This document shows positions 5,926-20,147 of a stretch of 55,826 nt of DNA, piece after piece. A program made the translations under genes and the position numbers. The notes beneath the pieces are model-generated. The model saw only the letters and a list, made by a program, of their open reading frames with translations, was not told where the DNA came from and searched no databases. This DNA is from Dehalococcoidia bacterium (GTDB lineage: Bacteria; Chloroflexota; Dehalococcoidia; GIF9; UBA5629): positions 27,929 through 83,754 of the forward strand of contig PLME01000013.1 of assembly GCA_003142375.1 (NCBI GenBank), given 5' to 3'. Position 1 is the first letter of the stretch, and every line of letters starts with the position of its first letter.

Positions 5926-6108
5926 ATGTACAGACGACAAAATCCAGTTAATTTCGGGCGATTGTAACAACCGTTGAGATATATGTCAACGAAGGTGTAT
6001 GATAGTTAATGGCGGGTGATGAATTCAGGGCGGCGGTCTAAAACAGCTAAACTTTTGATTTATGCATCCGTTATCTATATTGTGAATGAAGCTTACAGGA
6101 GTGGGGTA

Positions 6109-7392
6109 ATGAAAACGAAGTTGCTTTCTGTGTTAGGCCTATGCATTATCCTGCTGGCAGTGCTACCGGCTTGCCAGCCTCCGGTCGCATCCGGAGATGT
6201 AGCGACATCCGACAAGCCCAGGGAGACCGTGGCAGCGGTGAACCAGGCCGACCTCTCGGCCCTGGTGGACGGCAATAATAAATTCGCCGTAGGACTTTAC
6301 CAGATGTTAAAGAACGGTGAAGGCAACCTTTTCTACTCCCCCTATAGCATATCCATGGCGCTGGCCATGACCTATGCCGGCGCAAAGGGGACCACAGCTC
6401 AGCAAATGGGGGATACACTGCATTTTACCCTGCCTCAGGACAGTCTGCATACCACTTTCAACGGTCTCGACCAGCTACTTGCGAGCCGGGGGCAGGGCGC
6501 CAAGGATAAGGAAGGGAAAAGCTTTAAGCTGAATATAGTCAACGCTATTTGGGGTCAGAAAGGCTACCAGTTCCTCTCGCAGTACCTCGATCTGCTGGCG
6601 CAGAACTATGGGGCCGGCATGAGGCTGCTGGACTTCCGCAACGCGCCGGACGCCTCACGCCTGACCATAAATAAATGGGTCGCCGATCAGACCAAGGATA
6701 AAATCCAGGACCTTATCCCTCCCGGCGCCATCGACCAATTGACCAGGCTGGTGCTTACGAACGCCATCTATTTCAATGCCGCCTGGGACAGTCCCTTCGA
6801 AAAAGGCGCCACGCAGGACGGCAAATTCTATCTTAACGATGGCAGCAGCGTGACCGTGCCCATGATGAGCCAGACGGAGAGCCTGGGCTATGCCGCCGGG
6901 AACGGCTATAAAGCCGTCGAGCTGCCTTACGACGGGCGTGAGCTTTCGATGGTGATAATTCTCCCCGACAGTGGAACCTTCAGCCAGTTTGAAAACGCGC
7001 TGACCGCCGACAAATACGGCAGCATCGTTCAAGGCCTGACCGCAAAGCAAATCGCCCTCAGCCTGCCGCGCTTCAAGTTCGATTCATCCTTCAGCCTGAA
7101 TAAGGCACTGTCGACCATGGGGATGCCGCTGGCCTTCACCGACCAGGCCGATTTCTCCGGCATGACAGGAAACCGCGACCTTTCAATCTCCGATGTTATC
7201 CACAAGGCCTTCGTCGCGGTGGATGAGTCGGGCACCGAGGCCGCCGCCGCCACCGCAGTGATAATGCGAGTCACCTCCATGCCCCTGTCGCCAACCGAAG
7301 TCAAAGTCGATCACCCCTTCATTTTCATCATACGCGATATCAAGACGGGGACGGTGCTGTTCATAGGAAGAGTGCTCAATCCGGCAAGCTAA
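6109..7392 (+). CDS. Lipoprotein serpin (serine protease inhibitor)
   Basis: A 427-residue serpin carrying a lipoprotein signal (lipobox LPAC, Cys22), so it should be anchored outside the cytoplasmic membrane. The serpin fold is complete: FYSPYSISMALAMTYAGAKG, LTNAIYFNAAWDSPF, the ELPYDGRELSMVIILP strand and the C-terminal DHPFIFIIRDIKTGTVLFIGR. The hinge GTEAAAATA is rich in small residues, as required for inhibitory serpins that insert their loop. Counting from the hinge Gly as P15 puts P1-P1 prime at Thr-Ser in RVTSM. The distal loop is about three residues longer than in antitrypsin, so this position is uncertain. ATG 6109 is chosen because it begins the signal peptide and follows an AGGAG-like site; the longer in-frame extension has no support. 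Confidence 0.94.
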   Translation: MKTKLLSVLGLCIILLAVLPACQPPVASGDVATSDKPRETVAAVNQADLSALVDGNNKFAVGLYQMLKNGEGNLFYSPYSISMALAMTYAGAKGTTAQQMGDTLHFTLPQDSLHTTFNGLDQLLASRGQGAKDKEGKSFKLNIVNAIWGQKGYQFLSQYLDLLAQNYGAGMRLLDFRNAPDASRLTINKWVADQTKDKIQDLIPPGAIDQLTRLVLTNAIYFNAAWDSPFEKGATQDGKFYLNDGSSVTVPMMSQTESLGYAAGNGYKAVELPYDGRELSMVIILPDSGTFSQFENALTADKYGSIVQGLTAKQIALSLPRFKFDSSFSLNKALSTMGMPLAFTDQADFSGMTGNRDLSISDVIHKAFVAVDESGTEAAAATAVIMRVTSMPLSPTEVKVDHPFIFIIRDIKTGTVLFIGRVLNPAS

Positions 7393-7405: not shown

Positions 7406-7482
7406 ATCCCTCACCCCTGCCCCTCTCCCCAGGAGAGGGGATTTCTTTTTTCCAAAGAGGGGACAGGTTCCCTCTTCAACGC
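7406..7482. repeat. Dispersed palindromic repeat, family A (copy 1)
   Basis: About 77 bases built of two palindromes: a CCCCTCTCC/GGAGAGGGG hairpin and a GAGGGGACAGGTTCCCTCTT hairpin ending in CAACGC. It matches 45870-45948 in the opposite orientation and parts of 51846-52001 and 53389-53625. It lies just after the serpin stop codon, where it could also act as a transcript-end hairpin. Confidence 0.8.
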
Positions 7483-7641
7483 TTTCCCGTTCGTAATTGT
7501 TGTGAGTGTAGGCGTGTCCCATGCCACACATTTTTTCAAATAGCCCTTCATCATATACAATTGAGTTAACACGGCTGGTCAAGAGGCGGCAGTCAGAACA
7601 TCCGACTAAACAACCGGCTTAAGCGGTTTAAAGGAGATATT

Positions 7642-9228
7642 ATGTGGCAAAAAGGATGGCGCGAGAAGGTCTGGTCCGGGATCGATCAAGAATGGGACCT
7701 TGTTATCATAGGCGGAGGCATAACAGGGGCCGGGATTTTGCGTCATGCGGTGGCCACCGGGCTTAAAACGCTATTGGTCGAAGCTGGTGACTTCTCCTCC
7801 GGGACGTCCAGCCGTTCCTCCAAGCTGATACACGGCGGGCTACGCTATATACTCAATAAGCAGTTCAAGGTCACCCAGGAATCGGTCAGGGAAAGGGAGC
7901 GCATGATGAAAGAGGCTCCGCACCTGGTCACCAAGCTGGGCTTTTTATTCCCCAACTACCAGCGCTACCACATCAAAACCGGGCAAATCGGCGAGTTAAT
8001 CGCCATCTACGATTTGCTGGCTCCCAAGTGGGACCACCGCAAGTTCAGCCGGGAGAGGATGCTCAAAGATTGCTCCTATTTGAATAAAGAAGGCCTGCTG
8101 GGCGGCTACCTGTATTACGATGCCGCCATGGACGACTGCCGCATTGTCATCCGGGTGTTGAGGGAAGCCGTTAGAGACGGCGGAACCGCCCTCAACTATG
8201 CCAGGGTAGAAAACCTGCTGCGCGATAAAAACCAGCAGGTCTGCGGCATTGTCCTGAAAGACGTTGCCTCACCCGACGGCAAAACTATGGAGATAAAGGC
8301 CAAAGTTGTGGTAAATGCCGCCGGCCCCTGGGCCGACCAGATACGCATGCAAATCGCCGGGACGCCCCGGCTACGCCGCGTGCGCGGCAGCCACCTTATA
8401 CTCCCGCGTACAAAGGTACCGGTGGATAAGGCCATCACGCTGCTGCATCCAAAGGATAACCGCGCCACCTTCGTTATTCCCTGGGAAGGCACGATAATCC
8501 TGGGCACGACCGAGGTGGATCAGGACCCTGCCCTGGATATGAAGTACGCCGAGCCCTTCGCCAGCCACGATGAGATAACCTACATACTGGACGCTGCCGC
8601 CTACCTGTTCCCGGAACTAGGCATTACAGCAGCCGACATTATCTCCTCTTTTTCAGGGCTGCGCCCCATCGTGCGCGGCGGCGCAGACTCGGCTTCCAAA
8701 GAGTCGCGGGCGCACTCTATGTGGGAAGAGGACGGCATGATAACCATTACGGGCGGAAAATATACCACCTTCCGCATCATGGCCCGCCAGACCCTGGCGG
8801 CCGTGCTGCAAAAGCTGGGAAGGCCGCCGACGATTAAATTGAAGCGTGTCTTTACGAAATTGCCGGATATACAGGCGCGCAATATAGATCCGGCCACGCT
8901 GGGTTACCTGGCTGGACGGCACGGCGGAGATACCGCGGGATTGATCACCGCTGCAGGCGCCGGCGAGCTGGAGCGCATCAGTAACCTGCCCAATGTATGG
9001 GCCGAGCTGCGCTGGGCCGCCAGAGAGGAAGGCGCCGTCCACCTGGATGATATTTTATTGCGGCGTGTGAGGCTGGGTATGCTGCTGCCGGGTGGAGCCA
9101 AAGAGCACATGGAACACATACGCACCTTGACTCAGGCCGAGCTCGGCTGGAGCGATGAACGCTGGCAGCAGGAAGCCGGCAATTACTTAAACACCTGGCA
9201 AAAATATTACAGTCCTACGCCCGGCTGA
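7642..9228 (+). CDS. FAD-dependent glycerol-3-phosphate dehydrogenase
   Basis: Predicted to oxidise sn-glycerol 3-phosphate to dihydroxyacetone phosphate and pass electrons to quinone or another carrier. The 528-residue protein opens with the FAD Rossmann motif VIIGGGITGAGILRHAV near residue 20, followed by SSRSSKLIHGGLRYI, the family signature. GTTEVD, SFSGLRPIVRGG and TGGKYTTFRIMA follow in the expected order, with a C-terminal helical domain. The length is that of the GlpD/GlpA class. An AAAGGAG ribosome site precedes the ATG. It is the first gene of a three-gene run with the AGPS-like flavoprotein (54-base gap) and FGGY kinase (18-base gap after that). This suggests a shared glycerol-phosphate or ether-lipid role rather than plain glycerol use. 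Confidence 0.93.
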   Translation: MWQKGWREKVWSGIDQEWDLVIIGGGITGAGILRHAVATGLKTLLVEAGDFSSGTSSRSSKLIHGGLRYILNKQFKVTQESVRERERMMKEAPHLVTKLGFLFPNYQRYHIKTGQIGELIAIYDLLAPKWDHRKFSRERMLKDCSYLNKEGLLGGYLYYDAAMDDCRIVIRVLREAVRDGGTALNYARVENLLRDKNQQVCGIVLKDVASPDGKTMEIKAKVVVNAAGPWADQIRMQIAGTPRLRRVRGSHLILPRTKVPVDKAITLLHPKDNRATFVIPWEGTIILGTTEVDQDPALDMKYAEPFASHDEITYILDAAAYLFPELGITAADIISSFSGLRPIVRGGADSASKESRAHSMWEEDGMITITGGKYTTFRIMARQTLAAVLQKLGRPPTIKLKRVFTKLPDIQARNIDPATLGYLAGRHGGDTAGLITAAGAGELERISNLPNVWAELRWAAREEGAVHLDDILLRRVRLGMLLPGGAKEHMEHIRTLTQAELGWSDERWQQEAGNYLNTWQKYYSPTPG

Positions 9229-9282
9229 GGGCAGCCGGGGTGCTCATAGGGCACTTGTAGAGTTTTCCGGAGGAGGTCTATT

Positions 9283-11016
9283 ATGGCGGCCAAAGATGAA
9301 TTCGTCCCGGCATGGTGCGAACAGGTAGCGCCCCCGCATTCATTCCGCAGCCTTATCAAATACGGCGATCCCGCCGGATTCAAACATCCCAATGCCGGCA
9401 TGTTCCACTTATTGAAAGAGACCTTCGGCATGACGGACGAGGACTTCAGGAAGCCGGAGCTGTCCATGGAGGAGTTTGATATTGATATATCCTCCAAAAT
9501 GCCGCAGGCACAGATCGACGCGCTCAAGAATATAGTCGGCCTGGAAAACGTTCACATCGACACCTACAACCGTACGCGCGTCTCCTACGGGGCGGGCATG
9601 ATCGACGCATTGCGCCTGCGCCACCGGGTAGTGGAAAATCTGCCGGACGTCATTATCGATCCCCGCGATCAAAAGGACATCGAGGCTGTCGTGAAGTTCT
9701 GCGACGAGAACCGCATACCGTTGTATGTGGCGGCGGGCAACTCCAGCGTGACGCGCGGCAAAGAGGCGGTCAAGGGCGGCATATGCCTGGATATGTGCGT
9801 CCATATGAAAAAAGTCCTGGCGCTAAATGAGACCAACCAGACCGTGACGGTTCAGCCCGGCATCATGGGCCCCGAGCTTGAAAGGATATTGAATAACGCC
9901 CGCAGCACGCTGAAGGCCAAACGCGGCTACACGGTGGGCCATTTCCCTCAGTCTTTCGAGCATTCGTGCGTGGGTGGCTGGGTGGTGACGAGGGGTGCGG
10001 GACAGAACTCGACCTATTACGGCAAGATCGAGGACATGGTGATAGCCCAGGAATATGTTACGCCTATCGGCAATTTCAAGACGCCGGAGTTCCCGCGCTC
10101 GGCAACCGGGCCGGATTTCGACCAGATTATGATCGGCAGCGAAGGCACCTTCGGCATACTGACCAGCGTTACCCTGCGGCTGTGCCGTTACATGCCCGAA
10201 AATACCCGCCGTTTCTCGTATCTTTTCAAGACCTGGGAGGATGCTCTAAGCGCCTACCGCGAGGTCATGCAGGGAGAGTTTGGCCTGCCCTCGGTCTTCC
10301 GCCTCTCCGACCCGGAGGAGACGGATGTAGCCATGCGCATGTACCATGTGCAAGGCACGATTGCCGACACCCTGCTGCGCGCCATGGGTTACCTTCCCAT
10401 GAAGCGCTGCATATTGCTGGGCACGGTGGATGGGGACGGTTCTTTCACCCGGCTGGTCCACAAGAAGATCAAGATGGTCTTCAAGAGATACCGGCCTTTC
10501 AACCTGAGCCCGGCAGGCGTAACCCGGGCCTGGGAGAAAAGCCGCTACACCGATCCCTTCATGCGCGAGGATTTGATGGATTTCGGCGTTCTCATAGATA
10601 CGCTGGAATGCGCCGTCAACTGGGAGAACTTGCCAAAGGTGCACGAGCAGGTGAGGGCCTTTATCAAGTCCCGCCCGAAAACCATCTGTATGACGCACCT
10701 GTCGCACGCCTATCCGCAGGGAGGCAACCTGTATTTTATTTTCGCAGCCCGAATGAGGGATATCAATGAGTACCTGGAGCTGCAGTACGGCATACTGGAC
10801 GCCGTTTTGAAGGCGGGCGCAGCAATGAGCCATCACCACGGCATCGGCAAGCAGACGGGGCCGTGGCTGGTGCAGCAAATAGGGCAGCAACAGATGGATG
10901 TGATACGCGTCCTGCGCGACCATTTCGATCCGCACCACGTTATGAATCCCGGCGGCACGCTGGGGCTGGATATGTCCGAGGAGCAGAAGGCGAAGCGCTG
11001 GGGATTTCAGAAGTAA
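9283..11016 (+). CDS. FAD-linked oxidase of the alkylglycerone-phosphate synthase family
   Basis: A 577-residue PCMH-type FAD protein. It resembles alkyldihydroxyacetone-phosphate synthase (AGPS), which in animals swaps the acyl chain of acyl-DHAP for a fatty alcohol and so makes the first ether bond of ether lipids. Shared blocks are DVIIDPRDQKDIEAVVKFC, VQPGIMGPELERIL, VGGWVVTRGAGQ with YGKIEDMVI, MIGSEGTFGILTSVTLR, and the C-terminal SHHHGIGKQ with its His cluster. The family also includes D-lactate and glycolate dehydrogenases, but the VGGW-x-x-TR-x-[AG]-G and IED blocks favour AGPS. A GGAGGAGG site precedes the ATG. Its neighbour makes DHAP, the backbone such an enzyme would use. Whether ether-bond synthesis is the true reaction in bacteria is inference. 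Confidence 0.82.
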   Translation: MAAKDEFVPAWCEQVAPPHSFRSLIKYGDPAGFKHPNAGMFHLLKETFGMTDEDFRKPELSMEEFDIDISSKMPQAQIDALKNIVGLENVHIDTYNRTRVSYGAGMIDALRLRHRVVENLPDVIIDPRDQKDIEAVVKFCDENRIPLYVAAGNSSVTRGKEAVKGGICLDMCVHMKKVLALNETNQTVTVQPGIMGPELERILNNARSTLKAKRGYTVGHFPQSFEHSCVGGWVVTRGAGQNSTYYGKIEDMVIAQEYVTPIGNFKTPEFPRSATGPDFDQIMIGSEGTFGILTSVTLRLCRYMPENTRRFSYLFKTWEDALSAYREVMQGEFGLPSVFRLSDPEETDVAMRMYHVQGTIADTLLRAMGYLPMKRCILLGTVDGDGSFTRLVHKKIKMVFKRYRPFNLSPAGVTRAWEKSRYTDPFMREDLMDFGVLIDTLECAVNWENLPKVHEQVRAFIKSRPKTICMTHLSHAYPQGGNLYFIFAARMRDINEYLELQYGILDAVLKAGAAMSHHHGIGKQTGPWLVQQIGQQQMDVIRVLRDHFDPHHVMNPGGTLGLDMSEEQKAKRWGFQK

Positions 11017-11034
11017 AAATAGAGGAGGCCCACC

Positions 11035-12597
11035 ATGGCTGAGAACCTGCTTTCAATCGATGTTGGTACGCAGAGCGTACGTGCCCTGATTTTCGATCCG
11101 CGGGGCACCCTGATTGCCAAACAGCGTGTGCCCTACGAACCCTACTATTCGGATGCGCCGGGGCTGGCAGAGCAGAAGCCGCAGGTATACTGGAATGCCA
11201 TCTGCCAGGCCTGCCGCGGGCTGTGGCAAAAGGCAGAGGTAAAAAAAGAGGGCATCGCCGCCGTGGCGCTCACTACTCAGAGGGCCACGGTGGTCAATGT
11301 AGATGAGGCGGGAGAGCCGCTGCGGCCCGCTATCATATGGCTCGACCAGCGCCGCACGGAAGGCCTGCCGGCACTGGGGGGCGTGTGGGGCATTCTTTTT
11401 GCCCTGGCCGGCGCCAGTAAAACCGTAGCCTACCTTCGGGCCGAAGCGGAGGCCAACTGGATAATCAAGAATCAACCCGAAATATGGAAGAAAACACATA
11501 AGTACCTTCTGCTTTCAGGCTACCTTACCCATCAGCTGACCGGCCGGTTCGTGGATTCCGTCGGGTGCCAGGTGGGCTATATACCTTTCGACTACAAAAG
11601 CCAGAACTGGGAACCCAAATCAGGCTGGAAGTGGCAGGCGATACCCGTAGAACCGGGGATGCTGCCTGAGCTTGTCCGGCAGGCGCAGCCGCTGGGAGAG
11701 ATAACCGCCGGGGCGGCGGAAGCCACAGGCATCCCGGCCGGCCTGCCGCTGATCGCCGCAGCGGCCGACAAAGCCTGCGAAGTGCTGGGCGCAGGGGCGA
11801 TGGATCCGCACGTTGCCTGCCTGAGCTACGGCACCACGGCCACAATCGACACCACGCATGATAAGTACGTGGAGGTCGTCCCGCTATTGCCTCCCTATCC
11901 GGCGGCGGTGCCCATGCTCTACAGTTTCGAGATAGAAATATTCCGCGGTTACTGGATGGTAAGCTGGTTCAAGAACGAGTTCGGCCTGCGGGAGCAGCGC
12001 ATATCCGCTGAGAAAGGCATTGAACCGGAGGTGCTGTTCGATGAGCTGGTGAGGTCAGTGCCGCCCGGTTCGCAGGGATTGGTATTGCAGCCCTACTGGT
12101 CGCCGGGACTGCTCTTCCCCGGGCCTGAGGCACGCGGCGCCATCATTGGGTTCAGCGATGTGCATACCAGGGCGCATATTTACCGTGCCATCCTGGAGGG
12201 GCTGGCCTATGCTCTGCGGGAAGGCAAGGACCGCACCGAGAAGCGCAGCGGTGTCAAGATCACCGACCTGCGCATTGCCGGGGGTGGAAGCCAGAGCGAT
12301 GCCGCCATGCAGTTGACCGCTGACATATTCGGCCTGCCCGCCTCACGTCCGCATGTGTATGAGGCCTCGGGGCTGGGGGCAGCCATGGACGCTGCAGTGG
12401 GGATAAAACTGCACCCCGATTTCACGTCGGCCGTGAAGGAGATGACGCATTTAGGAAAGAGCTTTAACCCGCGTCCCGAGACGCAACAAACTTACGACAG
12501 GCTGTACAACGAGGTCTACCTGAAGATGTATGATAGGCTGAAACCGTTTTACCGCACTATCATGGAGATATCAGGCCGAATTCAGGCCGGTAAATAA
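11035..12597 (+). CDS. FGGY-family carbohydrate kinase (glycerol/xylulose kinase-like)
   Basis: A 520-residue ATP-dependent sugar or polyol kinase. The N-terminal phosphate loop is [15 protein letters not shown]. It is followed by [40 protein letters not shown], and the C-terminal FGGY signature region [20 protein letters not shown] with EASGLGAAM. The neighbouring glycerol-3-phosphate dehydrogenase suggests glycerol or a related three-carbon compound as substrate, but FGGY substrates cannot be read from sequence alone. GAGGAGG stands 7 bases before the ATG. It is the last gene of the three-gene run; its 3 prime end overlaps the convergent SCP2-fusion gene by 27 bases. Confidence 0.9.
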
Positions 12598-13641
12598 CAA
12601 GATCAGCAGCACTACGGACAGGGCCAGGCCGATATAGGCCCATACCTGCATGGTGCGTAAAGTTTCATCTATATCGCGGAAGCGGCGTGTAGCCGCGCCT
12701 TTTTGATATAAGGAGGTAAATATAAAGGCAGGCACCAGGGTCAGCAAGCGCACGCCCAGCAGGGGCAAAAACAGCCACACTACCGTTTTGCCAACTACAG
12801 CCAGGGCTGCCGAAATGACAAACTGCCAGCCCCAGACCAGACATATGGCCATATTGGGCTGGATAAACATACTGTTCGTCCATAATCCCTGAACGTAGCG
12901 CCATTTGGAATACTCCGCTGTTAAGGGCAGTTTGAAGGGTGGTACCATCGATCCCAGCCACATCAGTCCCAAGACTAGCAGTGCGATAGTCGAACCCCAT
13001 TTTACAATTAGATCTACCTCTATAATCGCACAGAGTATACCCACCGCTATAAAAAAGACCAGGCTGACTATCTCGGTCCACAGGGGGCGGTTGAAGATGA
13101 GGCGGTAAATAACTACCAATAAGACCAGGATGGTGGGTGGGGCAAAGGTGGTCCAGTAGTCCAGAGGGAAAAGATCATACAGTAAAAATAGCCAGGTCCA
13201 GGATACGAAGAGGATGGTCATCCAGGCCATGCCGCTTAAAGGCAGCGGGCCGGCCGGCCTCTGGCCTTTCGCCTCTATAGTGAAATTGTCCGGCCTCTTA
13301 AAAAGCTGCTGCATCTGTGCCAGCAGATTGGCGTCGCCGTCGACAGTGTAAAGGCCCTTGACCAGTGCGTCGAGGCCCGAAAGTTCCCCGGTGTTGATTT
13401 TGAGCCAGACGTCGGAAGGCGTACGGATGGTGAGAGTCGGCTGTTTGGCGGGCCCTGTGTGAAAACTGCATTTGCCCGACTCTATGCACAGATGGTACTT
13501 GCCTGGCTCGGGTCCGCTGGCTTCGAACTGAATGGTAGCCTTCATGTCCCCGGCCGCCGCGGCGTCGAAAACCAGCGGCATGCCTTCTATGGTCTGCCTG
13601 AAATTCAGTCCCTGGATGTCCATGTTTCCCAGTCGTGTCAT
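12571..13641 (-). CDS. SCP2 sterol-carrier-like domain fused to a polytopic membrane domain
   Basis: A 356-residue protein. Residues 1-115 look like an SCP2/sterol-binding domain: [38 protein letters not shown], then [20 protein letters not shown] and a [11 protein letters not shown] helix. SCP2 domains bind lipids or acyl-CoA in a hydrophobic tunnel. Residues 130-356 contain about seven hydrophobic segments with few charges. Soluble stand-alone SCP2 is the usual form; attachment to a multi-pass domain is less common. It converges on the FGGY kinase of the G3P/AGPS-like operon, so a lipid role for the neighbourhood is attractive but unproven. GGAGG precedes the ATG by about 11 bases; a second ATG six codons in (13623) is possible. 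Confidence 0.75.
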
Positions 13642-16901: not shown

Positions 16902-19900
16902 TCAGGACTGGCTGATATCCAGTTGATCGCTGGTGGTAAAGACTTTGTACTGCATGCCCCCGTGCCGCTTGGAAAAATACATGGCGGCGTCTGATTTGCG
17001 CATCAGGGTATCCATGTCTTCGCCGTTGTCGGGATAAATGGCGATGCCTATACTGGTCGATATGTGCAGTTCAAAGCCGTTTACGCGTAGCGGTTCCTTG
17101 CAGGAATCGACTATTTTCTCTGCTATCAGGGTGGCGTCCTCGGGATAATGGATCTCCTGAAGCAAAAGCAGGAACTCGTCGCCGCCCAGGCGCGCAACGG
17201 TGTCACTGGAGCGGAGTATATCGGATAACCTGGTTCCCGCAGCCTTAAGCAATTGATCTCCCACGGCGTGCCCCATAGTATCGTTGACTTCCTTGAAATG
17301 GTCCAGGTCCAGCGACATAATTCCCAGCTTATAGTTATTGCGGTTAGCCTGCGCCAGCGCCACCTGAAAACGGTCGTTAAGCAAGATCCTGTTGGGCAAC
17401 CCGGTCAGGTAATCGTGGGTTGCCATATCGGCCAGCTTCTGCTCCAGCATTTTACGCTCTGTAACGTCCCTGCTGACACAGCGGAAACCTACTGTTGCAC
17501 CAGTTTTATCTTTCGAGACTGATATGGCTGCCTCGACGTAGCCGACGGTCCCATCCTTTTTTACCATGCGGTGTGCGTAGCCTTTGTTGGCTTCCCCGGA
17601 CCTGTATACATTATTGAAGGCGGTAAACACCGGGTTGATGTCTTCCTCATAGGTAACCTGACGGAAATTCATCTGGGTAAGCTCTTCCATCGAATAGCCG
17701 GTATGTCGGGAGGTCGATTCATTAACGAACTGAAAATTGCCTGAGAGGTCTACTTCGTAGTAGGCATCCTCCATCTCCTCGAGTATGCTCCGGTACTTTT
17801 CCTCGGAAAGGAGCAGTGCCTCTTCAAGCATTTTACGCTCGGTCACATCCCGGGCGACCGACTTGAAGCCAATCACCTCGCCGCGCTCATTTCTACGCAC
17901 ATCGACGGAGCTTTCACACAAAATTGACTGGCCGTCTTTAATTGTTATCTTATGAGCGAAGCCGGTATTAGGTATCCCGCTTTTAAAAACCTCGTTGTAA
18001 GCCTGGAAAACCCGGTCGATCTCATCCGGAGGTGTAACTGCATGGTAATTTGTTCCAATTAATTGTTCCTTTGGGACGCCCAGGATATTGGCTGCCGCAG
18101 TATTGGCAAAGGTGTAGTTGCCCAGCAGGTCTACCTCGTAATAGCCGTCCTGCATTTGCTCGAGCATGGTCCGGTATTGTTCCTCGGAGCGCTGCACTTC
18201 CTGTTCAAGCCGGGTGCGCTCGGTGACATCACGGGAGAAACAGCTGAAGCCCCTGGCCTTTCCGTCTTCGTTCTTAAGCAAACGTATCGACGTTTCGATA
18301 TATTTTCCGGTGCCATCCTTGGCAACAAACCTAGAGGAAAAGCCTCTATTGATCTGCCCCGTTCTGAAAACCTCGTTGAATTTTTTATAGATAGAATCCT
18401 GCAGCGCCGGATCGACGATCCGGCGGAAATTGCTCTTTAGGAGCTCTTCCTCCGAGTATCCGCCGAACTCGCAGTAGGCCTTATTGACATAGGTATAGCT
18501 TCCCTTGAGGTCGACCTCATAGTACAGGTCGGGCATCTGCTCCAGTACACTTCTGTATCTTTCCTCCGAGCGCCTGACGTCATCTTCCAGCTTTTTGCGT
18601 TCTGACACGTCGCGGCCCAGGCAGGAGAAGCCGATGGGGTGACCCTGCTTATCCTGTAACAGGCCGATGGACGATTCTCCAAACCCGATGGCGCGGTCCT
18701 TGCGTATGATTCTATGGGAGAAACCTGTATTCGGCTCGCCGGTCTCATATACGTGGTGGAAGGCGCTGAAAACCCTGTCGATCTCGTCTTCAGGCATGAT
18801 AACCCGGTAATTCTTGCCGTCCAGCTCACCCTTCTCGTAGCCCAGGTTCTGGCAGGTAGCAGCATTCAGGAAGGTAAAATTGCCGGCCAGATCGACCTCG
18901 TAATAAGAATCGAGCATGCGGTCCAGCATGCTGCGGTATCGCTCTTCCGATACAGCCAGCGCCTCTTCCAGCGCCCTACGCTCAGTAATATCACGGCCCA
19001 CGCAAAGAAAGCCATACGGTTCACCGCCGGGGCTTTTGAGCAATGAAATCGACGATTCCATGTAGAAGACTCTACCGTCTTTGCGGGTAACCTGGCTGAC
19101 GGTATTGGTCTTGGATTTGCCTGTCCGCAAGACCTCAACGAATTCCTTCTTGCGGGCCTTGCGGTTTTCTTCAGAAAGAAACATGCTGGCGTTTTTACCG
19201 ATAAGCTCCTCACGGGTGTATCCCAAGTCGCGGCATACCCCCTCATTGACAAAAATGTAGTTGCCATCCAGGTCGAGGCCGTAGCAGCCGTCGTGCATCT
19301 GTTCTAGTATGGTCCGGTAGCGCTCTTCGGAGGCGGCCAGCGCTTCCTCAAGAGCCTTGCGCTCGGTCATATTGCGCGCAACGCAAAGAAAGCCATAGGG
19401 TTGACCGCTCTGGGTTTTCATAAGGGAAACGGACTGTTCGACCCAACCCACTACTCCGTCTTTACGCCTTACCCTGTGAACGAGGCCGATACAGGGCTTG
19501 CCTGTCTGGAAAACCTCCAGGAATTTCTGGCGTGCCATCGCATTGTCTTCTTCAGGCACGAGCAGACTGGTGTTTTGTCCCAACAGTTCATCGGGCGAAT
19601 ATTGCATGCCGCGGCACATGGCATCATTAACAAAGATGTAGTTGCCTTTCAGGTCGACTTCGTAGCAGCCATCCTGCATCTGATCCAGTATGGCGCGGTG
19701 CCACTCTTCCGATTTGGCCAGCGCCTCCTCCAGCACCTTGCGCTGGTTGATATCCATGAAGCTGCCCATGGCCGCCCGCTGGCCCATGTATTCCATGGAA
19801 GTGATACGCTCCAGCACCCACACCACTTCACCGTTCTTTTTCAGGAACCTGTACTCGTAGGTATTGGCCTTGCTTTTTTTCTTTAATATCTTGCTGACTT

Positions 19901-20147
19901 TTTTCCTGATCATTTCCCGGTCGTCGGGGTGGATCAGGTTGAGGGACGGGGTGCCTACCAGCTCCTGCATGGTATAGCCGGACAGCTCCTCAAAAAATGG
20001 ATTGACATAAATGAAATTTTTATCCTGAACCATGTAGATGCCGGCGCCTGTGTTATTGAGAAGCGCCTCGATAAGTGATGCCAGCCCGGAAAGATCGGAC
20101 TGATAGTTTTTTAATTCTTCCCCCAGCGGGTCCGGTTGTATGGTCAT
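16902..20147 (-). CDS. Diguanylate cyclase with seven tandem PAS domains
   Basis: A 1081-residue soluble signalling protein. Seven PAS-PAC units occupy residues 20 to about 900. Each ends in a D-[IVM]-[TNS]-[EQ]-R-[KRT] motif followed by a short coiled linker of the form LEEALxxSEExYRxxL. The C-terminal domain (about 905-1070) is a GGDEF cyclase with DYLTGLPNR, DLDHFKEVNDTMGH and an intact active site GGDEF at 988-992, so it should make cyclic di-GMP. RSSD at 979-982, five residues before GGDEF, is a canonical inhibitory site, implying product feedback. No EAL domain, signal peptide or membrane segment is seen. PAS units 2 to 7 are strikingly alike (EQMxDxYYEVDLxGNYxFVN), pointing to recent internal duplication. 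The ligands sensed are unknown. Confidence 0.93.
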   Translation of the reverse strand: MTIQPDPLGEELKNYQSDLSGLASLIEALLNNTGAGIYMVQDKNFIYVNPFFEELSGYTMQELVGTPSLNLIHPDDREMIRKKVSKILKKKSKANTYEYRFLKKNGEVVWVLERITSMEYMGQRAAMGSFMDINQRKVLEEALAKSEEWHRAILDQMQDGCYEVDLKGNYIFVNDAMCRGMQYSPDELLGQNTSLLVPEEDNAMARQKFLEVFQTGKPCIGLVHRVRRKDGVVGWVEQSVSLMKTQSGQPYGFLCVARNMTERKALEEALAASEERYRTILEQMHDGCYGLDLDGNYIFVNEGVCRDLGYTREELIGKNASMFLSEENRKARKKEFVEVLRTGKSKTNTVSQVTRKDGRVFYMESSISLLKSPGGEPYGFLCVGRDITERRALEEALAVSEERYRSMLDRMLDSYYEVDLAGNFTFLNAATCQNLGYEKGELDGKNYRVIMPEDEIDRVFSAFHHVYETGEPNTGFSHRIIRKDRAIGFGESSIGLLQDKQGHPIGFSCLGRDVSERKKLEDDVRRSEERYRSVLEQMPDLYYEVDLKGSYTYVNKAYCEFGGYSEEELLKSNFRRIVDPALQDSIYKKFNEVFRTGQINRGFSSRFVAKDGTGKYIETSIRLLKNEDGKARGFSCFSRDVTERTRLEQEVQRSEEQYRTMLEQMQDGYYEVDLLGNYTFANTAAANILGVPKEQLIGTNYHAVTPPDEIDRVFQAYNEVFKSGIPNTGFAHKITIKDGQSILCESSVDVRRNERGEVIGFKSVARDVTERKMLEEALLLSEEKYRSILEEMEDAYYEVDLSGNFQFVNESTSRHTGYSMEELTQMNFRQVTYEEDINPVFTAFNNVYRSGEANKGYAHRMVKKDGTVGYVEAAISVSKDKTGATVGFRCVSRDVTERKMLEQKLADMATHDYLTGLPNRILLNDRFQVALAQANRNNYKLGIMSLDLDHFKEVNDTMGHAVGDQLLKAAGTRLSDILRSSDTVARLGGDEFLLLLQEIHYPEDATLIAEKIVDSCKEPLRVNGFELHISTSIGIAIYPDNGEDMDTLMRKSDAAMYFSKRHGGMQYKVFTTSDQLDISQS

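Follow-up and report, generated by a model that had tools for sequence, protein, structure and literature searches.

An operon of a GlpD-type dehydrogenase, an AGPS-family flavoprotein and an FGGY kinase in Chloroflexota: a possible route for anaerobic use of alkylglycerols

The operon and its three proteins

The window analysed here is a stretch of 55,826 nucleotides from a sediment bacterium of the Dehalococcoidia (assembly GCA_003142375.1, contig PLME01000013.1, positions 27,929 to 83,754 of the forward strand), whose genome of 2.14 Mb is 92% complete. A GlpD-type dehydrogenase, a flavoprotein of the alkylglycerone-phosphate synthase (AGPS) type and an FGGY kinase are encoded in the window as one operon (7642-12597, + strand), which we consider as a candidate pathway for the use of alkylglycerols. 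A sequence-only reading of this DNA had described four open reading frames here, three of them in a short-gap operon, and the arrangement was borne out by Pfam domains and by gaps of 54 bp (dehydrogenase to AGPS) and 18 bp (AGPS to kinase). Among the genome contigs searched, the nearest relatives of the locus are in metagenome-assembled genomes (MAGs) of Dehalococcoidia (AGPS identity 94% at locus L004). The operon genes are:

7642-9228, + strand: flavin adenine dinucleotide (FAD)-dependent glycerol-3-phosphate (G3P) dehydrogenase-like protein (GlpD/GlpO type), 528 aa, Pfam DAO and DAO_C; proposed alkyl-G3P dehydrogenase
9283-11016, + strand: AGPS-family flavoprotein, 577 aa, Pfam FAD_binding_4 and FAD-oxidase_C; proposed substrate alkyl-dihydroxyacetone phosphate (alkyl-DHAP)
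11035-12597, + strand: kinase of the FGGY family, in a subfamily of its own, 520 aa, Pfam FGGY_N and FGGY_C; proposed 1-O-alkylglycerol kinase

None of the three proteins reached an NCBIfam equivalog cut-off. The top match of the 577-aa protein was GlcD, far below its cut-off, and the two Pfam domains are shared with D-lactate, glycolate and other 2-hydroxyacid dehydrogenases, one of which might have been misread here as AGPS. A sequence search of the PDB gave Dictyostelium ADPS as the best solved relative (4e-69), matched guinea-pig AGPS at 1.5e-46, and matched mitochondrial D-lactate dehydrogenase (LDHD) far more weakly (1e-23). With an AlphaFold model (pLDDT 81.9) as query, AGPS chains made up the first 37 PDB matches of Foldseek, before any LDHD, with a TM-score of 0.66-0.79 of the query. 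In a tree, made by a quick method and with long branches flagged, 62 AGPS-type rows were split from the LDH/GlcD clade with a support of 100, and the window type, a second tier of Chloroflexota proteins and eukaryotic AGPS were joined at a support of 99. Residues H220, R340, R428, Y484 and H517-H519 align with AGPS H300, R419, R515, Y578 and H615-H617; all seven are identical in the window protein and in window-type relatives, and they are invariant in 27 relatives from several phyla. The GlcD-like protein of the same genome lacks these residues and has SGEHG where the AGPS type has SHHHG. The assignment of the 577-aa protein to the AGPS family, resting on its PDB sequence relatives, predicted fold, tree placement and catalytic residues, is solid. 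A lactate or glycolate dehydrogenase identity was rejected on the tree, the residues (the SGEHG motif being absent) and the fold; at the family level it is refuted, and we consider it extremely improbable. The AGPS-like identity proposed earlier is thus upheld, as is the presence of the Tyr, His and Arg expected in the active site, and since the family membership holds, the link of the locus to ether-lipid or glycerol-phosphate chemistry is well supported.

The 528-aa dehydrogenase scored below all NCBIfam cut-offs for GlpD and GlpO, yet the DAO and DAO_C domains are present and all 33 operon copies retain Escherichia coli GlpD residues R54, Y55, H233, R317, R332, K354 and T356, which we take to form the G3P site. 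Domains and G3P-binding residues thus place it in the GlpD/GlpO group, and a G3P-like substrate is likely because these seven residues are retained. Contig C12 of the same genome carries a canonical GlpK (700.9 bits against a cut-off of 590) adjoining a GlpD, of which the operon kinase and dehydrogenase are paralogues. The operon pair is therefore not needed for plain glycerol, and probably acts on a substrate other than glycerol. No alignment columns were found that separate the operon GlpD from the canonical GlpD.

The kinase scored below every curated FGGY cut-off in NCBIfam (for GlpK, 169.6 against 590), and in a tree its clade of 28 operon members and 3 unlinked proteins was separate from GlpK with a support of 100. 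Alignment with GlpK showed that R83, W103 and D245 are retained in the operon subfamily, and that E84, Y135, F270 and Q246 are replaced in the window kinase by A, L, T and K, respectively. Across the subfamily Y135 and F270 are lost, Q246 is changed to K, and the E84 site holds A, S, N or G in Chloroflexota and D in Clostridia and Spirochaetes. Since E84, Y135 and F270 presumably line the glycerol site of GlpK, we infer a wider substrate pocket in the operon kinase. Score, clade and pocket all set the protein apart from GlpK, and its structure model resembles FGGY kinases generally, not GlpK alone.

Related operons, their FadR regulator and the surrounding sequence

Other genomes keep the three genes together as a conserved block, and the set is found again in Chloroflexota, Bacillota and Spirochaetota. 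Related loci in Chloroflexota have the arrangement GlpD-AGPS-FGGY; those of Clostridia and Spirochaetes have a GlpA-type dehydrogenase, an NAD(P)/FAD oxidoreductase, a DUF1667 protein and mostly a kinase, followed by AGPS. The version in which these three proteins replace GlpD (L020-L022, L029-L031 and L041) may point to NAD(P)-linked electron transfer in the step otherwise taken by GlpD. In an even, unselected sample of 301 Chloroflexota genomes an AGPS-family protein was found in 33 and the window type in 5, a sparse distribution that fits an accessory pathway, and a GlpD-type gene lay within ∼1.5 kb in 28 of the 30 AGPS loci fetched from this sample. Wider fetches gave complete FadR-AGPS-GlpD-FGGY or FadR-GlpD-AGPS-FGGY operons (L115, L118, L119 and L126). 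As the Chloroflexota kinases from these fetches are 58-72% identical to the window kinase, and several of the AGPS copies only ∼30% identical to the window protein, one kinase subfamily is combined with two AGPS types. Longilinea and genome G306 have no adjacent kinase, but each has an unlinked one elsewhere (72 and 63% identity, respectively). Among 299 genomes of the phylum of Oceanirhabdus (Bacillota), all 7 window-type AGPS copies had kinase or oxidoreductase/DUF1667 neighbours and 5 of the 9 second-tier copies had a GlpD. The operon of a MAG titled Syntrophaceae (L013) groups in the tree with Dehalococcoidia copies (AGPS identity 71%), reflecting either a recent transfer or a misbinned contig.

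In Anaerolineae and other Chloroflexota the first gene of the operon encodes FadR (200-215 bits against an NCBIfam cut-off of 189). When the residues given for E. coli FadR (PMC4259882) were compared, R35, T44, R45, T47 and R49 were kept and S219 and W223 mostly so, with T46P and G216M as differences. A box, AACTGGTNNGACCNCTT, was present at 0-1 mismatch, ∼50 bp or less from the annotated fadR start, in all 14 FadR operons, where at most ∼0.2 matches per locus would be expected by chance at 2 mismatches. The operon holds the box in each of seven whole genomes (five perfect, two with one mismatch); all 5 perfect genome-wide matches sit at the operon, and the other matches were four one-mismatch sites, no more than were obtained with the reversed control pattern. 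A lone AGPS gene (L023) is likewise preceded by a box, at a distance of 49 bp. The Chloroflexota box, AACTGGTCAGACCACTT, resembles the E. coli fadL and fadBA sites, although FadR was formerly called exclusive to gammaproteobacteria (PMC4259882). Unlike E. coli FadR, the operon FadR would be local, regulating this operon alone as judged from the box distribution. Protein and operator thus occur together in Chloroflexota relatives, and the FadR of many of these operons probably senses long-chain acyl-CoA. True FadRs with E. coli-like operators were seen in Chloroflexota and in one Bacillota genome, at L016:5614-6348, at L015, L017-L019, L032, L038, L111, L112, L115, L117-L119 and L126, and also at L161.

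The placement of the kinase outside all curated families would also suit some other glycerol-like substrate, such as a polyol (for example erythritol) or a substituted glycerol, handled by the kinase, a polyol-phosphate dehydrogenase and an AGPS-fold enzyme with a new reaction. Erythritol catabolism likewise combines an FGGY kinase with a GlpD-type dehydrogenase, and HutC-type and GntR/FCD-type regulators take the place of FadR in Clostridia and Spirochaetes. However, the AGPS active-site residues and the G3P site of GlpD are all kept, and FadR with its box indicates lipids in Chloroflexota, so that we regard this alternative as improbable.

Around the window operon the following features were noted:

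7420-7449, + strand: hairpin of terminator type with a T-rich tail, separating the operon from the serpin gene (consensus scan; pattern match only)
7533-7561, + strand: sigma-70-like promoter TTTTCA-17-TACAAT, 5′ of the operon (consensus scan, 9/12, near chance level)
7612-7628, no strand assigned: imperfect palindrome AACCGGCTTAAGCGGTT, 5′ of the start codon, present in the window and L004; weak candidate operator, not a FadR box
7630-7637, + strand: ribosome-binding site AAAGGAGA before ATG 7642, read from the sequence
12571-13641, − strand: convergent gene for a 356-aa protein with an SCP2 domain (Pfam) and a hydrophobic C-terminal part (membrane protein); judged outside the system

The SCP2 gene overlaps the kinase 3′ end by 27 bp and had been described in the sequence-only reading as facing the operon. 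Among the related loci compared it adjoins the trio only in the window, L004 and L010; it was therefore left out of the locus and rejected as an operon partner. The gene directly 5′ of the operon (6016-7392) encodes a serpin, and a serpin gene is again found close to the operon in the Dehalococcoidia relatives L004, L007, L010, L014 and L035. Further into the window, 16902-20147 encodes a 1081-aa protein which, from its translation, has repeated PAS-like sensor units and a GGDEF-like C-terminal end.

Direction of the pathway

AGPS uses a ping-pong mechanism that passes through a flavin-bound DHAP intermediate (PMC3509576). In the pathway we propose, the FGGY kinase would convert a 1-O-alkylglycerol to 1-O-alkyl-sn-glycerol-3-phosphate, the GlpD-type flavoprotein would oxidize C2 to give alkyl-DHAP, and the AGPS-type enzyme, by analogy with AGPS chemistry, would form the flavin-DHAP intermediate from alkyl-DHAP, expelling the fatty alcohol. 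The intermediate could then be released as DHAP by addition of water, or as acyl-DHAP by addition of a fatty acid. DHAP would enter glycolysis, whilst the fatty alcohol would be oxidized to acyl-CoA and then β-oxidized. The gene set fits this order in that each enzyme would accept the product of the preceding one, from the kinase, of a glycerol-kinase-like fold with altered E84 and F270 sites, to the dehydrogenase with its intact G3P site and on to AGPS. The end products of the pathway would be DHAP and a compound leading to acyl-CoA, the class of ligand that FadR binds, and a FadR-type regulator would switch the operon in many relatives. That the operon is an O2-independent pathway using 1-O-alkylglycerols, the remnants of ether lipids, is a reading based on sequence comparison, with its direction inferred, and we give it about an even chance of being correct.

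The opposite direction is the established one for AGPS. In this case the enzyme would make alkyl-DHAP from acyl-DHAP and a fatty alcohol so that the cell could build ether lipids for its own membrane, and the kinase and GlpD type would provide the glycerol-phosphate backbone, convert it between its forms, or recover alkylglycerol. The residues used in synthesis are all retained, AGPS adds a little to the ether lipids of Myxococcus (PMC9131029), and in published surveys bacterial agps homologues are interpreted as genes for synthesis (PMC11868695). One Chloroflexota locus (L124) couples GlpD and AGPS with a short-chain dehydrogenase, and FadR could link the operon to acyl-CoA supply. However, a profile search of the genome (92% complete) gave no PF01553 acyltransferase, PF07993 matches there are weak and resemble ordinary NAD epimerases, and the operon has no fatty-acyl reductase (FAR) or acyltransferase of the FAR/GNPAT kind that partners AGPS in the Myxococcus operon. 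These missing biosynthetic partners support breakdown. In addition, DHAP is the usual product of FAD-linked GlpD, biosynthesis gives little reason for a dedicated kinase, and the distribution is patchy. We therefore regard synthesis as unlikely, whilst giving it serious weight as the main rival to breakdown. Thus, of the ether-lipid or glycerol-phosphate locus suggested by the sequence-only reading, the chemistry is well supported but the synthetic direction is not: no PF01553 candidate was found for the acyl-DHAP synthase to be looked for in the genome, and a kinase and FAD-type G3P dehydrogenase paralogous to the canonical GlpK-GlpD pair suit a catabolic order of steps.

The same genome has five PlsY (PF02660) paralogues (L068-L072) alongside its lack of PF01553 (PlsC/PlsB/GNPAT) proteins, so that sn-2 acylation of its phospholipids has no explanation other than one of the PlsY copies or a gene on a missing contig. 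Myxobacterial relatives were not used as a biosynthetic control, as they look like another branch (R515 replaced) and have no recurring FAR/GNPAT-like neighbours.

The substrate of the proposed breakdown might instead carry an acyl group, with a monoacylglycerol kinase, an acyl-G3P dehydrogenase and release of the fatty acid from acyl-DHAP by the AGPS type. The first AGPS half-reaction does cleave acyl-DHAP (PMC3509576), and release of a fatty acid would suit the logic of FadR control. Lipases, however, cut esters directly, and three dedicated enzymes, including the AGPS flavin site, would be unnecessary; we consider this version quite improbable.

Several observations weigh against breakdown of alkylglycerols. 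AGPS is known solely as an ether-bond synthase, and to propose that it cleaves alkyl-DHAP is to extrapolate from the ping-pong mechanism; the operon has no gene for the released alcohol, and the NADH-linked GlpA variant could work in the synthetic direction as an alkyl-DHAP reductase. The roles given to the kinase pocket residues are presumed from the structure of GlpK. Deltaproteobacterial AGPS copies (L024-L026, L028 and L039) have neither a kinase nor a GlpD adjoining, and the kinase subfamily was not found in two Spirochaete genomes, G304 and G305. FadR can activate as well as repress, and a search 1.5 kb around the kinases that are unlinked in Longilinea and G306 found no FadR box. In the window's own genome no protein carries FadR_C, and every match to the box within the window has 3 mismatches and lies elsewhere than 5′ of the operon; FadR control of the window operon itself was therefore rejected.

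Relation to known systems and implications

The window-type protein shares with eukaryotic AGPS/ADPS (EC 2.5.1.26; PDB 2uuu, 4bby) the fold and the FAD domain, together with the HHH motif, the catalytic Tyr, the two Arg residues and the counterpart of H300, and falls in the same supported clade. It differs in being bacterial, not peroxisomal, and encoded with a kinase and a GlpD-type dehydrogenase, and its reaction and direction are predictions. MXAN_1676 of Myxococcus xanthus is likewise a bacterial AGPS-family protein in an operon, but it is encoded alongside a FAR/GNPAT fusion and an NAD epimerase/dehydratase (PMC9131029), in place of which the operon described here has the kinase and G3P dehydrogenase, plus FadR in many relatives; with no FAR/GNPAT-type acyltransferase beside AGPS, it does not belong to the Myxococcus type of ether-lipid biosynthesis operon. 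Glycerol catabolism by GlpK and GlpD uses the same series of FGGY kinase and FAD-dependent G3P dehydrogenase, to which the operon adds AGPS, and the operon kinase forms a separate clade with an altered pocket. Alkylglycerol monooxygenase (AGMO, EC 1.14.16.5) cleaves the alkyl-glycerol ether too, as proposed for the operon, but requires O2 and tetrahydrobiopterin and yields an aldehyde, whereas the proposed route would be O2-free; the O2-dependent AGMO has been called the sole known alkylglycerol-cleaving enzyme (PMC7911779). The PlsA/Ger route to plasmalogens and alkyl ethers is also anaerobic ether-lipid metabolism, with unrelated enzymes. In the window's own genome a 1400-aa open frame (C18:42089-42730, L150) encodes the sole PF09989 protein, which may be an ether-lipid enzyme of the PlsA/Ger type or else an activase of 2-hydroxyacyl-CoA dehydratase.

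The sequence-only reading had considered an AGPS-type route in bacteria to be notable in itself. Bacterial AGPS is not new, being already recorded in Myxococcus (PMC9131029) and in Black Sea MAGs, with homologues in Chloroflexota and Desulfobacterota among those interpreted as ether-lipid synthesis genes (PMC11868695), and it is the gene company that is unexpected. We found no description in the open-access literature of a kinase-GlpD-AGPS operon, of its control by FadR or of anaerobic alkylglycerol cleavage. The operon may represent the first O2-independent cleavage of alkyl ethers, with an alkylglycerol kinase, an alkyl-G3P dehydrogenase and AGPS as ether lyase or hydrolase, transferred among anaerobes and other bacteria and FadR-controlled in Chloroflexota; judged from sequence, this fuller claim is tentative, and we place it a little short of an even chance.

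Ether lipids are thought hard to degrade, and if anaerobes do use AGPS backwards, this would help to explain ether-lipid recycling in sediments. It would also yield a candidate for the gene of alkylglycerol kinase (EC 2.7.1.93), an activity to which, to our knowledge, none has been assigned. Bacterial agps genes would then be no simple marker of ether-lipid producers, contrary to their use in surveys (PMC11868695), and the result would bear on the place of AGPS in early-membrane reconstructions (PMC11383801). Even if the direction is synthesis, the kinase-dehydrogenase-AGPS-FadR set is a clear testable unit.

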